Source: Bacteriovoracaceae bacterium (GTDB lineage: Bacteria; Bdellovibrionota; Bacteriovoracia; Bacteriovoracales; Bacteriovoracaceae). Taken from it: a DNA stretch of 48,422 nt. The stretch lies in assembly GCA_016784965.1 (NCBI GenBank), contig JADHTQ010000034.1:1-48422 (forward strand). Reading direction: 5' to 3'. Below the pieces are notes generated by a model that searched no databases, was not told where the DNA came from, and saw only the letters and a program-made list of their open reading frames with translations. This document shows, in pieces, positions 8,293 through 42,683 of this stretch. A program made the position numbers and the translations under genes. Numbering within the stretch: position 1 is the first letter of the stretch; each line of letters begins with the position of its first letter.

Positions 8293-8859
8293 CTATTGCA
8301 TCTTCTTAAGTTGCTTGACCATATGCTTGAACTCGGGGGTGTCGGCGCGCTTTAGAAGATGAAACAGTAGGGTTTCGGTATTTAAAATATGAGCACCGGC
8401 CTGCCTCATCAGCTCAAGCCCATTTTCCCATTTAAGTTTTGTAGTAGACAGTACGGCATCTTTTAAAACGATTACGATATATCCTTGATCTAGTAAATCT
8501 AAGGTAGTTTGCAAAACACAAATTTGGGTTTCAAGCCCTGTCACCACCACTATGGGCCTGGAGTTATTTTTTAAGTTTTGCTGAAATTGCTCATCCCCAC
8601 AACAACTAAAAGTGATCTTATCAGTAAAAACCGGGGCATCTCCCCACGCTTTTAACACTTCTGAGTCAGTATCCCCTAGACCTTTTTTGTAGTGTTCAGT
8701 GCCAATCATTGGCACTTCCAATTTTTTAAACATTTCAATCAGCAGTAGGATGTTTTTGTGAGCATCTTTTACAATAGATTTTTTTAGAATTTTAAAAAAG
8801 CTTTGTTGATAATCAATCAACAAAAAAAGTACATTTTCCGGTGTCAGTTTTTTCCACAT
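8293..8859 (-). CDS. Isochorismatase-family cysteine hydrolase
   Basis: The 188-residue protein has the family catalytic triad Asp16 (LLIDYQQ), Lys81 (TDKITF) and Cys114 (ETQICV), and the TEHYKKGLG segment found in YcaC-like members. Enzymes of this family hydrolyse C-N amide bonds such as N-carbamoyl compounds, ureidoacrylate or nicotinamide. The ATG at 8859 with AAGGAG upstream is preferred over an in-frame codon at 8895. It is the first gene of the seven-gene operon. A role removing ammonia from an amide intermediate such as an oxamate-like product is plausible but not shown. Confidence 0.9.
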   Translation of the reverse strand: MWKKLTPENVLFLLIDYQQSFFKILKKSIVKDAHKNILLLIEMFKKLEVPMIGTEHYKKGLGDTDSEVLKAWGDAPVFTDKITFSCCGDEQFQQNLKNNSRPIVVVTGLETQICVLQTTLDLLDQGYIVIVLKDAVLSTTKLKWENGLELMRQAGAHILNTETLLFHLLKRADTPEFKHMVKQLKKMQ

Positions 8860-8949
8860 ATCTTTCTCCTTCAAGTAAAGGGTACTCCTATCCATTTAGG
8901 TAAAAGAGATATCCTCCCAAATATAGGCGAAAATTGGAAGTGAATTCTT

Positions 8950-8986
8950 GGGGGGGCACCGCAGCACAGGTGGCAGCTATCCCCCC
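8950..8986. other. GC-rich hairpin with seven-G and six-C arms downstream of the first HNH gene
   Basis: A run of seven G at 8950-8956 faces six C at 8981-8986, with CACC and GGTG as an inner stem. It overlaps the end of the HNH gene. No T-tract follows, so it is not a canonical intrinsic terminator, but it could slow polymerase or protect the HNH transcript end before the operon start at 8859. Confidence 0.4.
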
Positions 8987-9888
8987 GGCGCAATAAACGA
9001 ATATTGAGGGCCAGCACTCGTTTGTTCTAAATAATAATTTACGCTCTTTGGCAATGTAACACTGTCTCCCTGCAACATTTTTTGTACACCCAGCACTTTA
9101 ACAGCTGCTCTAGCATTGCACCCAAAACACAATTTTCTGATATTTTCTTTAGAGCTATCACCACCTTTGGAGATAGGCCTTAAATGATCGTACTGCAAAT
9201 TTGTTCTGCTTTGACATCGCTTCCCAGAAATTGGAGAAATACCTTCGCATCTATTTTGGGCCCTTTTATCTACATGCTCTTTGACAACTCTCGTGATATA
9301 TCTTTGATTCTTAGAGTGTTTAGTTGATCTGCGCTTATCTTTGGCCTTTTTGTTTTGTTCAATATGTCGGTCTATCAAAGACTCGATAATCTCCAGCTCA
9401 GTGCAGCCTTCAAAGTCATCACTTATGTTTTCAAGCTTTCTTAATAGATGCTCAGGGAGTGTAATGTTCAACGATCGAGGCAGAGGATTATCGGCCAAAA
9501 AATTTAAAATATCTTTTGCCTGTCTACTAGATTTACCACAAACTTTTTTTACAACATCGTCTTTGTTTTGTTGTTTATTATTTTTAAAAAATGAATAGAG
9601 AGAGGCAGCCGTTGTCAGGCTCAGACTGCCATCTTGAATTTTTTCTTTGATGATGGGAGAGGCCTTAAAGGCCCGGACAACCTTCACGCGAACTGCTGCT
9701 TCACAGTCTGAATACTTAAGAATTCTCGTACAAAATTTATATAGAGATGGCACACCGTGATCAATAAAAACTTTTCGTCGATCGATCTCCTCGAGGTAAC
9801 TTAAAACTTCTGAAGCGATAAGTTTTTCCTCTTTAACTTTTTTTACTACCTGTACAATAAGCTCTTTATCACTAAGTGTATTAATCAT
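8977..9888 (-). CDS. HNH endonuclease-type protein, copy 1
   Basis: The 303-residue protein has an N-terminal helical region that resembles the DUF222-type segment of actinobacterial 13E12 repeat proteins (KFCTRILKYS, then SPIIKEKIQDGSLSLTTAAS), a basic linker, and a C-terminal HNH domain. In the HNH part, CEGISPISGKRC and LCFGC give four zinc-type cysteines and YDHLRPIS-GG-EN gives the catalytic His and Asn. The ATG at 9888 follows GGAGG and is preferred over the longer frame. A paralogue of identical length is at 41318-42229, about two-thirds identical by eye. No methyltransferase or other restriction partner is near. DNA cleavage is inferred from the motif; the biological role is unknown. 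Confidence 0.85.
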   Translation of the reverse strand: MINTLSDKELIVQVVKKVKEEKLIASEVLSYLEEIDRRKVFIDHGVPSLYKFCTRILKYSDCEAAVRVKVVRAFKASPIIKEKIQDGSLSLTTAASLYSFFKNNKQQNKDDVVKKVCGKSSRQAKDILNFLADNPLPRSLNITLPEHLLRKLENISDDFEGCTELEIIESLIDRHIEQNKKAKDKRRSTKHSKNQRYITRVVKEHVDKRAQNRCEGISPISGKRCQSRTNLQYDHLRPISKGGDSSKENIRKLCFGCNARAAVKVLGVQKMLQGDSVTLPKSVNYYLEQTSAGPQYSFIAPGG

Positions 9889-10198
9889 TTTTTCCTCCAA
9901 AGTTTCATAAAAAAAAACTAACACAATTGTGATCAATTGACTAATGTAAGAAAATGCCAAAAGACCCTTCAGAAGCCGGGCAAGGCTTATGAAACAGCTC
10001 TTGTTAGTAGCACAATAGCCTCTATTTGGGCCACTACTTTAAAGAAGTGAAAAAGTTGTTATTTTTTTCATTTTGGAAGCTTCTAAGACGTTAAAAGACC
10101 TCAGTATTTTTGTAAAAAAAAACTGTCATCAGCAAATTTGTGCTATCTACACTAAAATGCTCATTGCCATTTTGCATAATAAGTACTAAACAGTGCGG
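9889..10198. other. Divergent intergenic region between HNH copy 1 and the YiiX-like gene
   Basis: These 310 bases hold the leader of the HNH gene with CAATTG twice (9924-9929 and 9934-9939), the shared 20-base element at 9939-9958, a short hairpin AAGCC/GGCTT at 9973-9988, and an A/T-rich hairpin at about 10047-10071. No further open frame with a ribosome binding site is seen, and no convincing promoter for the plus-strand gene. Confidence 0.4.
9939..9958 (-). promoter_or_regulatory. 20-base element shared by both HNH gene copies, site 1
   Basis: Read on the minus strand this is GGCA followed by TTTTCTTACATTAGTC, lying 50 bases upstream of the HNH start at 9888. The same 20 bases with one change occur 53 bases upstream of the other HNH gene (42283-42302), while flanking DNA differs. 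It contains CTTACA, a possible -35 box. It is probably a promoter or operator shared by the family. Confidence 0.6.
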
Positions 10199-17678: not shown

Positions 17679-17755
17679 TGGTGGTCTGGGGGAGAGTTGA
17701 ACTCCCGACCTGCGGGATATGAATCCGCCGCTCTAACCAACTGAGCTACCAGACC
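17679..17755 (-). tRNA. tRNA with anticodon CAT (Met or lysidine-type Ile2)
   Basis: The 77-base gene folds as a cloverleaf: 7-bp acceptor stem GGTCTGG/CCAGACC, D arm AGCTCAGTTGGTTAGAGC, anticodon loop TTCATAT, T arm with GTTCAA-type loop, discriminator A and encoded CCA. The anticodon CAT (complement at 17719-17721) allows elongator Met or, after lysidine modification, Ile2; the D arm rules out initiator-like oddities but does not settle the choice. The last anticodon-stem pair is an A-C mismatch (positions 31-39). It lies 88 bases from tilS, in the opposite orientation. Confidence 0.9.
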
Positions 17756-39637: not shown

Positions 39638-39900
39638 AATTGTAACTACCAACGTCTTCGATAGAGTTTTTTACTACCGACTACTATACATTGGGATTTT
39701 GAGCGAAGCTTACATGCCAGAGGAGAAAACGTTCAGAAGGCAAAATCTCAAAAAGTATAAAACCAGAACACTAGGATATTATAACGCACAATGTCGCCAC
39801 AAACAAGCACTTAAGAACAAATTTGTATAATTTCAGATATTTAACTAGTATTCTAAATGTATTTTTAGTATGATTGTCTATAAATATTAAGGAGTTAGGA

Positions 39901-41295
39901 GTGAAGATCTTATTAGTAGCACCTGCTAGGGATTGGCTGGAAGCTGCTGTAGCAGTTTTTAAAACTGAACTGCAGTTTGAAGTCAGTATTGCAGACAATG
40001 GCATAGAAGCACAAAAGTTAATCTCTCAATTTCAATTTAAACTTATTTTTTTAAATTTAGATGTTCAAAGACACTCTGGAATCGAGGTTTTAAACTTTAT
40101 TAAGATCAAGTATCACAATGTTCCAATAATTTTTAGCACTTCACAGAAGGATTTAATTACAAAAGATCTATTAACCAAATTTAAAAACTACTATATCTTG
40201 CCCCCTGATGGATCACTTGATGATCTTTTAAAGTTGGCGGTGACCATGACTATGCCAAATGTTGTAGTGCAATCCAAAGAAAAAAAACCCAAAAAAAACA
40301 CTGAGGTAGAGGGGGTAATGGAACTTGATAAAAATTTTACTAAAATTAAAATTGATGAATTTTTCTCGGGCAAAGAGGTACTGTTTGATGTTTTAATTCG
40401 CCTTACTGAGGGGAAGTATTTAAAAATTCTCCATGCAGGGGATTCATTTTGTAGTGAGCGACTTAATACTTACAAGGTTGATAAAAAAGTTGAATATCTC
40501 TATATTAAAACCGAAGATCGCGAACTTTATATTAGGTACTACAATACGTTACTGAAAAATTCTTCTGAGAACAAACAAATTGATCCTACTATTAAAATTA
40601 AACTAGCACAAAACGTTTGTGATAAGTATGTCGAAGAGGTCAATATAAAGGGGCTAAAGCCACACCTCGTTGAGCAAGGTAAACAAATTGCGCAAAACAT
40701 TTATAAGCTGATAAAAAAAGATAAAGCTGTCGCCAAATCGCTACTGACTTTAAAAGAACTAAGACCACAAGTTCATTCTCATTCATTTTTAGTCACTCTT
40801 TTTTCTTGCTTAGTTGCCAGACAGTTTAAGTGGAACTCCTCTTCCACCATAGATACAATTGGTACTGCTTGTTTTTTTCACGATATTGGTATGACCAAAC
40901 TTCCCCCAGATCTGTCCACCATTTACTCTAGCAATATGGAAGGTAGTCAAATTAAGCAGTATCATCGACATGTACAGTTAAGTGTAAGTCTTCTGCCCCC
41001 AAACAGCATGTTTGGAGGAACTGTCGATCAAATTATTTCTCAACATCATGAAGCTTTTGACGGTTCCGGATTTCCCCGGGGAGTTTCTGGAAAATATATA
41101 AACGTCTTATCAAGCATTGTCTCATTTGTTGAAGGATTTGTAGAATATATGTCTGAAAAAAGCTTAGATCCCATGCAGACCACCAATGAACTGTTTAAGG
41201 AAGTAGATTTTTTAAAAAAACACAACCCTGTAGTCATGCGAAATTTTTTAAAAACTTTAATAGACGCCAAAGATATCAGTAACACTTTACAATAA
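39901..41295 (+). CDS. HD-GYP phosphodiesterase with degenerate receiver domain
   Basis: The 464-residue protein starts at GTG 39901, with AAGGAG 6 bases upstream. Residues 1-115 form a receiver-like domain whose beta 1 lacks the acidic pair (ILLVAPARDWL) but keeps Asp in LIFLNLD. A C-terminal HD-GYP domain, the type that degrades cyclic di-GMP, has HSHS, FHDIGMTKLP near 327 and HHEAFDGSGFP near 382; the final motif is GFP, not GYP. The metal ligands appear kept. It is likely a cyclic-dinucleotide phosphodiesterase with a non-standard input. Confidence 0.85.
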   Translation: MKILLVAPARDWLEAAVAVFKTELQFEVSIADNGIEAQKLISQFQFKLIFLNLDVQRHSGIEVLNFIKIKYHNVPIIFSTSQKDLITKDLLTKFKNYYILPPDGSLDDLLKLAVTMTMPNVVVQSKEKKPKKNTEVEGVMELDKNFTKIKIDEFFSGKEVLFDVLIRLTEGKYLKILHAGDSFCSERLNTYKVDKKVEYLYIKTEDRELYIRYYNTLLKNSSENKQIDPTIKIKLAQNVCDKYVEEVNIKGLKPHLVEQGKQIAQNIYKLIKKDKAVAKSLLTLKELRPQVHSHSFLVTLFSCLVARQFKWNSSSTIDTIGTACFFHDIGMTKLPPDLSTIYSSNMEGSQIKQYHRHVQLSVSLLPPNSMFGGTVDQIISQHHEAFDGSGFPRGVSGKYINVLSSIVSFVEGFVEYMSEKSLDPMQTTNELFKEVDFLKKHNPVVMRNFLKTLIDAKDISNTLQ

Positions 41296-41317
41296 TAATT
41301 TACGCTCAAACTACCAT

Positions 41318-42229
41318 TTACTTATCTGGCGGAATAAAACTATACTGAAGACCTGTATCTGTTTGCTCCAAGTAATACTCAACGCCAGGTGACAGGGCAG
41401 CACTGCCTCTTTGCACCATTTTCTCTGTCCCGAAGGCCTTGACAGCTGCCCTCTGGTTACAACCAAAACAAAGCTTTCTGATATTTTCTGTCGAGCTATC
41501 TCCTCCTAACGAAATTGGGCGTAGATGATCATATTGAAGATTAACTCGACTGGTACAACGCTTCCCAGTTATGGGAGAGAATCCTTCACACCTATTTTGT
41601 GCCCTTGTATCTACTGACTCTTTGACCTCTCTGGTAATATATCTCTGGCTTTTTGATTGTTTAGTAGATGTGCGTTTTGCTTTGGCAAGTTCAGTTTGTT
41701 CAATATATTTATCGAGCAAACATTCGATCACTTCAAGCTCACTGCAATCATCAAAATCCCGCCCAACCTTTTCAAGCTTCTTTAATAAATGTTCTGGAAG
41801 GGTAATATTTAACATTCTTGGTGGTGGATTTTTAGATAGTGAATGTAAAATGTTTTTTACCTCTTTGCTCGATCTGCCGCATACATGTTCAACTAACTTG
41901 CTTTTGTTTTGAATTCTATTGTTTTTAAAAAATGCATACAGTGAAGCAGCAGTTGTTAAACTTAAACTTCCATCTTTAATTTTTTCCTTAATAATGGGCG
42001 CCGCTTTGATAGCACGTATGGTTTTTACCCGTATCGCAGCTTCAGCATCAGAGTATTTCAAAATTCGTGTACAAAACTTAAACAACGAAGGTGCGCCATA
42101 ATCGACAAACAATTTCCTTTTATCAATTTCTTCTAAATAATTTAAGACTTCTATGATAATTTGTTTTTCCTCTTTAACTTTTATTTTAATACCGGCAACT
42201 AATTGTTTGTCACTCAATTTACAGATCAT
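41318..42229 (-). CDS. HNH endonuclease-type protein, copy 2
   Basis: This 303-residue protein matches the copy at 8977-9888 across its whole length: the helical DUF222-like region, the basic linker and the zinc-type HNH domain (CEGFSPITGKRC, YDHLRPIS-GG-EN, LCFGC). Both have the same length without gaps. The ATG at 42229 follows GGGGAG, and an in-frame longer start at 42268 is not used. It lies 22 bases after the convergent HD-GYP gene end. Both copies are monocistronic and share an upstream 20-base element. The role is unknown; no partner gene is found. Confidence 0.85.
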   Translation of the reverse strand: MICKLSDKQLVAGIKIKVKEEKQIIIEVLNYLEEIDKRKLFVDYGAPSLFKFCTRILKYSDAEAAIRVKTIRAIKAAPIIKEKIKDGSLSLTTAASLYAFFKNNRIQNKSKLVEHVCGRSSKEVKNILHSLSKNPPPRMLNITLPEHLLKKLEKVGRDFDDCSELEVIECLLDKYIEQTELAKAKRTSTKQSKSQRYITREVKESVDTRAQNRCEGFSPITGKRCTSRVNLQYDHLRPISLGGDSSTENIRKLCFGCNQRAAVKAFGTEKMVQRGSAALSPGVEYYLEQTDTGLQYSFIPPDK

Positions 42230-42282
42230 TTCACTCCCCTTGTTTAAAATATTTTTAGAAACTATCATAACAATTGCATAAA

Positions 42283-42302
42283 GACTAATGTAAGAAAACG
42301 CC
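42283..42302 (-). promoter_or_regulatory. 20-base element shared by both HNH gene copies, site 2
   Basis: Minus-strand GGCG then TTTTCTTACATTAGTC lies 53 bases before the HNH start at 42229, matching 9939-9958 except for one base. TATGAT occurs 19 bases after CTTACA and could be the -10 box. Confidence 0.6.
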
Positions 42303-42394
42303 GACAGCTTTTAATAGTGGGGGTATGGGCAAATAAATAACTCGCCTAAGATACTTTTTGGCGTGTTTAAAACGTTTGCTTTAAAAAGATAAAA

Positions 42395-42461
42395 AAGATG
42401 TTACATTTTTTATTATCCAAGGCCTGGGGGGCCAAAAACTAGGCCCTAATTTTTTTTTTTT
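42395..42461 (+). ncRNA. Possible small RNA ended by an intrinsic terminator
   Basis: If the TTGGCG/TTAAAA pair at 42358-42386 is a promoter, a transcript of about 67 bases would begin near 42395 and end in the T-run at 42461. It encodes no convincing protein. This is inferred from the orphan terminator; the start is uncertain. Confidence 0.3.
42428..42461 (+). terminator. Canonical intrinsic terminator with 12 T
   Basis: GGGGCC (42428-42433) pairs with GGCCCT (42442-42447, one G-T pair) around an 8-base loop, followed by AAT and a run of 12 T. No annotated plus-strand gene ends nearby; the closest is the HD-GYP gene, 1.1 kb upstream. Confidence 0.75.
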
Positions 42462-42524
42462 AAAAAACCTTACTTCAAGCAATGTCGCACTCTCCCGTTA
42501 TAGTAACGACGCAAGGGTTAAACA

Positions 42525-42683
42525 ATGAAAAGGACAAAACGTCTGGGGAATAGATGGCGTTCATATTTTGTAGGATTTGAAATTTATATTGTTTGGTATA
42601 GAGTTTTTGATTTTGCAGAAGCACACTTATTCTGTGACAATTTTTTCAATTTTGTTTACAAAGCGCTTGTCGCGTTTGCTTAA
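42525..42683 (+). CDS. Possible 52-residue basic/hydrophobic small protein
   Basis: An ATG with AAGGG 8 bases upstream opens a 52-codon frame: a basic start (MKRTKRLGNRWRS) and an aromatic, hydrophobic body rich in Phe, Tyr and Val that could be a membrane helix. TATAGT at 42499-42504 could be its -10 box. The last 57 bases overlap the minus-strand lipoprotein gene, which lowers the likelihood. I recognise no family. Confidence 0.22.
   Translation: MKRTKRLGNRWRSYFVGFEIYIVWYRVFDFAEAHLFCDNFFNFVYKALVAFA

Follow-up and report, generated by a model that had tools for sequence, protein, structure and literature searches.

Mobile units in which an HNH gene lies beside a noncoding leader are known from the IscB/HEARO (OMEGA) elements and from the HNH-only IshB. 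Multi-copy HNH repeats, 13E12 among them, have been on record for decades, to our knowledge with no mechanism assigned. The host of the DNA considered here, a Bacteriovoracaceae bacterium, is a relative of predatory bacteria. An excerpt of PMC10589994, citing Gordon et al. 1999, names REP13E12 as a Mycobacterium repeat. Our literature search, with most subscription papers outside its coverage, returned no description of such an HNH family in Bdellovibrionota.

The window, by which we mean the whole 48,422-nucleotide stretch of DNA that was analysed, carries two reverse-strand HNH genes of 303 codons plus a stop codon each. They encode proteins A1 (8977-9888, stop included) and B1 (41318-42229, stop included), which the preliminary description of this DNA had presented as a pair of 303-residue proteins that align without gaps. 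BLASTP bears this out, with 69% identity over 301 amino acids and zero gaps. Both are HNH endonucleases by their matches to PF01844 (28.7 bits for A1 and 26.5 bits for B1, against a cut-off of 21.4), and the same model is matched by all 29 members of the family alignment at E <= 0.5. Values of dN/dS between 0.12 and 0.28 in 17 of 17 within-group pairs point to purifying selection, with 0.13-0.14 for A1 against A2-A4 and 0.125-0.184 for B1 against B2-B5. Each gene had also been called monocistronic, which is plausible for B1, whose downstream neighbour is convergent; the claim is less secure for A1, where a same-strand ORF (8293-8895) starts about 80 bp downstream. The window's only Rfam match at the gathering threshold is a tRNA gene at 17682-17755 on the reverse strand.

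An AF2 model built from 29 family sequences (mean pLDDT 82, pTM 0.45) was analysed with VIA-align, and the DNA positions given here for the segments of A1, all on the reverse strand, are calculated from residue numbers. Residues 20-137 (9478-9831) form a predicted helix-turn-helix (HTH) segment that resembles ParB, Noc, Spo0J and KorB in the 13 top rows (Z 6.6-8.8), and residues 137-190 resemble ribbon-helix-helix (RHH) proteins, with the ParD1 and PrpA rows covering 51-54 amino acids at Z 5.6 (segment 140-190, 9319-9471); the tool rates the Z values of both likenesses as middling, and they may reflect merely a common arrangement. Residues 190-299 resemble the HNH enzymes McrA, Gme nickase and IscB (HNH rows, Z 5-6) and include the nuclease domain matched by PF01844 (residues 195-267, 9088-9306). 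Other routes gave less: for the ParB-like N-terminus Foldseek reached an E value of only about 2, HTH_ParB matched one member only (E 0.042), and Foldseek with the protein model returned nothing at E <= 0.001 in PDB or BFVD. As modelled, the HNH protein would resemble a ParB-like HTH joined to a ribbon-helix-helix and an HNH domain. A role in defence is not claimed, as the PADLOC matches are to the HNH domains of restriction enzymes only.

Searching the host assembly (4.59 Mb in 126 contigs) with the window protein gave 24 match rows. These include 11 full-length, close HNH copies (A1-A4, B1-B5 and C1-C2), together with contig-end pieces on contigs C27, C1 and C19, the last two of which form group D, and shortened pieces at C108:14404 and on contig C90. 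A distant subfamily of 33-38% identity (G000d) is found on contigs C8, C48, C31 and C15 and at C108:92234. The genome-wide count called for by the preliminary description is thus 11 full-length copies plus fragments, and it is a lower bound, several pieces stopping at contig ends. Among the genomes of relatives, 19 of 59 have HNH matches at E <= 1e-10, distributed patchily and often in multiple copies. When a first family alignment was used as the query, no close relatives were found in public genomes or viral contigs; a second family alignment retrieved 13 distant loci in public genomes and 8 in viral contigs. The public-genome relatives include Bacteriovoracaceae RS_8_16, Bdellovibrionales RIFOXYC1_FULL_37_79 and Oligoflexia nKLKbin12. 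Two 3'-terminal HNH pieces in the host are leaderless: L185 (G000:C90:99251-99354) holds the last 34 codons and L076 (C108:14404) about 124 codons, and one of them forms the end of a neighbouring reading frame. Their origin could be either a 5'-truncated insertion or a later deletion.

The limits of the units were drawn from pairwise blastn. For A1, homology with A2, A3 and A4 runs from -242 relative to the ATG through the end of the stop codon, giving a unit of leader plus HNH ORF at 8977-10130 (reverse strand). For B1, homology with B3 starts at -336 relative to the ATG and ends at +10 past the stop codon, giving a unit at 41308-42565 (reverse strand). Between copies of one subgroup, conservation extends over the ORF and about 240-340 bp of leader, and homology ends 0-16 bp past the stop codon. 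The earlier remark that the bases around the shared upstream element differ is therefore true between A1 and B1, members of two different subgroups (A and B, respectively), and untrue within a subgroup. Outside the units the flanks of the copies are unrelated, and the insertion sites are intergenic and differ from copy to copy, with a long ORF interrupted by none of the 11. Homology of leader plus ORF between copies is also seen within the related genomes G017, G022, G019 and G055.

Duplication of larger segments whose flanks have since diverged, leaving ordinary old paralogues that keep a conserved promoter, would fit the purifying selection found in all within-group pairs. We consider this very improbable, given that the boundaries are sharp and that the flanks of C1 and C2 (dS 0.107) and of B1 and B3 (dS 0.204) are no more alike than background. 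From these sharp boundaries and unrelated flanks at low dS, we infer that leader and gene move together as one unit. The 11 full-length copies, each a discrete unit of leader and ORF, probably represent the multi-copy, selfish family that had been suggested.

Two hallmarks of classical insertion sequences, a target-site duplication and a transposase of their own, were not detected in these units. The preliminary description had proposed seeking such duplications beside the copies; across 11 copies, whose ends are uncertain, the longest shared flank word averaged 6.1 on the two sides of the same copy versus 6.5 between copies. The HNH gene is the only ORF in the unit, and it matched no transposase family. 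No intron or intein was seen at the HNH copies, and neither an empty site nor the empty allele that serves as a test for homing endonucleases was found using another lineage's copy, a same-genus genome being absent from the phylum set.

Some neighbourhoods have features of their own. The gene at 39874-41295, downstream of B1, which by eye has a receiver-like start and is HD-GYP-like, has a 73% DNA-identical paralogue beside B4 (L070, G000:C23), where it sits on the opposite side of the HNH unit. Tandem arrays of GGAACA and AACCGCTCACTCA-like repeats lie just downstream of some units (L177 and L065, and after transposase ORFs in L176 and L178). As a general downstream feature the GGAACA simple repeats were rejected, since they occur in two places only.

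A noncoding leader of near-constant length that adjoins an HNH gene might encode a structured RNA partner of the HNH protein, such as a guide, in the manner of IscB/HEARO, and the HNH domain here is weakly similar to that of IscB. Nevertheless, we regard this explanation as far-fetched. The two window proteins score 18.9 and 19.3 bits with the IscB model against a cut-off of 175, there is no Rfam match at the gathering threshold in the window leaders or at seven other loci, and folding energies are unremarkable (z-scores from -2.75 to +2.18, most above -1.5, for 22 leaders on both strands).

The leaders do share short sequences. A 20-base element, GGC-N-TTTTCTTACATTAGTC, had been reported 50 and 53 bases before the two start codons, and both the sequence and the distances are correct: exact matches lie at 9939-9958 upstream of A1 and at 42283-42302 upstream of B1, both on the reverse strand. 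Each contains a site that we call R, CTTACATT, at 9943-9950 and 42287-42294, respectively. These are the window's only 2 sites for the element at three or fewer mismatches, with 0.01 expected. The constant part of the element across copies is TTTCTTACATT, with a second block, TGNTA, at a fixed distance. The element is half of a promoter-like bipartite motif, TTCTTACATT-N19-TGNTA, with exact matches at 9919-9952 for A1 (TTCTTACATT-N19-TGTTA) and 42263-42296 for B1 (TTCTTACATT-N19-TGATA), both on the reverse strand. A sigma-70 consensus promoter was found in neither window leader.

Exact copies of the bipartite motif number 16 in the host genome, and all are at the leaders of HNH genes or of RAYT-type transposase genes: nine full-length HNH copies (A1-A4 and B1-B5), two contig-end HNH pieces (on contigs C1 and C19) and five RAYT leaders. 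In G022 there are six, all before HNH starts, one of them that of a shortened 60-aa ORF, and in G017 there are two, both at HNH starts, while copies L085 and L089 of that genome carry the variant CTGACATT. The phylum scan covered 368 genomes, of which three have element-bearing HNH units (the host, G022 and G017); the other 365 yielded nine matches in eight genomes, versus 11 for a reversed control. The motif is absent from copies C1 and C2, from L088 in G017, from L094 in G022 and from all G000d copies. A three-mismatch match to the element at C94:9970 has no HNH copy beside it, and the RAYT of that contig lies elsewhere. With the exact motif in nine of 11 full-length copies that are discrete leader-plus-ORF units, the suggestion that the element travels with the gene is supported. 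Its presence widely upstream of unrelated genes, which the preliminary description had named as the finding that would count against it, is borne out only narrowly: the other carriers are the five RAYT leaders, and apart from G022 and G017, with their element-bearing HNH units, the other genomes of the phylum are at background.

Other conserved upstream blocks occur in this protein family. In the G000d copies (L078-L081), a TTTGCNAAAG..TATAA block stands where the element would be. The HNH copies of G024 (L046 and L062) have ACTTCCGCCGGCGGAAGT, and a AAAAACATGGGGTTA-like block precedes loci L111-L122 of G057, a genome with 29 match rows.

Upstream of R lies a second site, L (GATGTAAG-like), which is a near inverted copy of R. 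In A1 it reads GATGACAG (10123-10130, reverse strand), with two mismatches to GATGTAAG and 180 bp from R, and it coincides with the left limit of the unit; alone this site is not significant, and its position is the same as in the other groups. In B1 it reads GAAGTAAG (42469-42476, reverse strand), with one mismatch, 182 bp from R and a shuffle p of 0.027. The L-R distance is 179-182 bp, with two mismatches in L in group A, one in B, zero or one in D and zero to two in the four G022 leaders of sufficient length. An ATGTAAG-type word stands at 180-181 bp in three of four G017 leaders; the best word of the fourth is elsewhere, with GGTAAG at the matching offset. A spacing of about 180 bp is thus maintained across three genera, and in the RAYT leaders L is 171-172 bp from R in five of five.

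Shuffle p values for single leaders range from 0/300 up to 0.74, and group A by itself would not reveal L. When leaders of host HNH copies, G022 and G017 were combined, the best shared 8-mer fell 169-182 bp upstream of R in 135 of 176 combinations, and a 60-combination subset had a mean mismatch of 2.72, versus 4.47 for the lowest among 40 shuffled sets. Copies C1 and C2 have lost L and have a degraded R, a joint loss that is expected of sites working together. Locus L091 has R without L. Outside these families, ATGTAAG-N158-187-CTTACAT occurs in 14 of 59 genomes, mostly once each and near the reversed control, and we do not claim a new family. A promoter pointing outward, as a mirror image at site L, could be made out by eye just in A2, B and D, and we do not claim it either.

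The five RAYT-type leaders with the motif are on host contigs C9, C48, C51, C94 and C110, and four of them precede a Y1 transposase of about 190 amino acids. The one protein scanned belongs to Y1_Tnp (PF01797; 38.5 bits, cut-off 23), and its best match is the RAYT equivalog model at 30.8 bits, below the cut-off of 80. Two RAYTs in G019 have different upstream sequence without the motif. Three host copies (L176, L177 and L178, on C48, C51 and C94) are preceded by an extra repeated gene that they have in common, with its terminator directly next to site L; the RAYT copy on C9 is without this gene, and its homology stops at site L. In the remaining leader (L180, G000:C110:1-150), the sequence after the start codon enters what by eye is group-II-intron-like sequence (GGTGAAAGTCC) before the contig end, with no Rfam match there.

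In a tree of 53 HNH proteins, which leaves out three pieces shorter than 200 aa and has several long branches that make deep placements unsure, the 17 element-bearing rows need at least three changes on well-supported branches. The host A/B/C clade is separate from a clade of G022, G017 and G000d (support 100/96 for the latter). Because the element-bearing HNH proteins are not one clade, the module does not follow a single gene lineage, and so it either passed between genes or originated more than once. The residues of the HTH helix in G022 and G017, where the element is present, are closer to those of G000d, where it is absent, than to those of host groups A and B. These residues do not track the element, which argues against the HNH protein as its binder.

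This last point would also suit a host-encoded sigma factor or regulator that drives or silences these genes, the sites being conserved along with the host factor, as would a motif common to unrelated genes in one cell and to distant HNH clades. Such a factor should have other targets, whereas above background the motif is found only at HNH and RAYT leaders in three of 368 genomes, and we consider a host factor unlikely. The idea of a shared regulator is itself favoured by the confinement of the element to HNH leaders and five leaders of the unrelated, mobile RAYT family. Since genomes that have no units are essentially free of the motif, this regulator would most likely be supplied by the units themselves.

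The same leader layout in RAYT and HNH units, a module not bound to a single protein lineage and the location of L near the unit's left end could alternatively indicate that L and R serve chiefly in recombination or transposition. In that case the leader would be the left end of non-autonomous elements moved in trans, for example by RAYT, with the ORFs as passengers. However, R is 50-60 bp before the ORF rather than at an end, and no right end is common across families. RAYT as a general mobiliser is further weakened by G017, which has no match to the host RAYT, and by G022, which has a distant one only (E 1.5e-6), given that both have element-bearing HNH units. We find this explanation doubtful, and prefer regulation through L and R.

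A feature at the other end of the proteins might bear on how the units spread. According to PMC6006769 and PMC4549789, proteins bind the beta sliding clamp through a motif QL[SD]LF or QLxLF, usually C-terminal, and clamp binding is reported for many transposases. A regular expression for motifs of this kind matched 16 of 54 family tails, with 0.46 expected. A1 and B1 both have QYSFI (8992-9006 and 41333-41347, reverse strand), Q[YC][ST]FI is near the C-terminus in all group A-C copies, and a QYELF-like motif is found in four of five G000d copies; one further match is a frameshifted HNH piece. Among HNH copies, such tails occur only in this genome, with none in G022 or G017. Four RAYT tails of the host read QLSFF (twice), QLSLL and QLVLF. 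The replication-strand bias expected from clamp recruitment was not seen, as six copies are leading and six lagging by GC3 skew, a count that leaves out A4, whose contig is only 8.7 kb.

Overall, we favour, at about even confidence, mobile, probably selfish single-gene units under the control of L and R by a dedicated regulator that is likely supplied by the units. Each unit comprises about 240-340 bp of leader followed by an ORF, with the stop codon as the right end. The bipartite motif would serve as a non-consensus promoter belonging to the unit, and the paired sites L and R would be bound by one dedicated regulator, which would control HNH and RAYT mobile genes jointly. With its predicted HTH-like and RHH-like segments, the HNH protein is the first candidate for this regulator, despite the helix residues noted above. 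More speculatively, the nuclease might nick or cut DNA near replication forks via the clamp-like tail, and new copies might arise by repair or replication-coupled copying. Counting against this scheme are the different spacing in RAYT leaders, the leader that has R without L, the lack of target duplications, empty sites and strand bias, the tails missing from G022 and G017 copies, and the middling Z values.

A broader proposal, which we advance only tentatively, is that inverted GATGTAAG-like and CTTACATT sites at near-fixed spacing constitute a portable control module, common to two distant HNH clades and RAYT, so that these genes form one element-run regulon. If true, mobile elements in one chromosome would, unusually, be cooperating or parasitising one another through one regulator of unrelated selfish genes. 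Now that the unit limits, the control sequence and a second gene family are defined, binding, expression and mobility are directly testable.

Among known systems, IscB/HEARO and IshB are similar in that an HNH gene adjoins a noncoding leader in a mobile unit, but the leaders here have no HEARO or other Rfam match and are not unusually structured. Free-standing HNH homing endonucleases are likewise stand-alone, spreading nuclease genes, although the present copies occupy many unrelated intergenic sites rather than one homologous target. RAYTs (PMC6006769) are alike in that those of this host share the leader layout and have a clamp-like motif at the C-terminus, but they belong to a protein family unrelated to HNH. 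The likeness to 13E12 DUF222-HNH repeats drawn in the preliminary description survives for multi-copy dispersal and otherwise stays an analogy: DUF222 (PF02720) exceeded its cut-off in none of 59 genomes, with the positive control C. glutamicum detected, and weak matches occur in two of 29 family members (best E 0.0011). In both systems the genes are scattered in several copies, encode a helical N-terminal part and a C-terminal HNH domain, and come with no transposase of their own, whereas the N-terminus here is, as modelled, ParB-like with an RHH-like segment. By this analogy, the HNH units appear to work most like REP13E12-type dispersed HNH repeats. We know of no L/R leader module in 13E12, and the new part is this shared module of near-fixed geometry.
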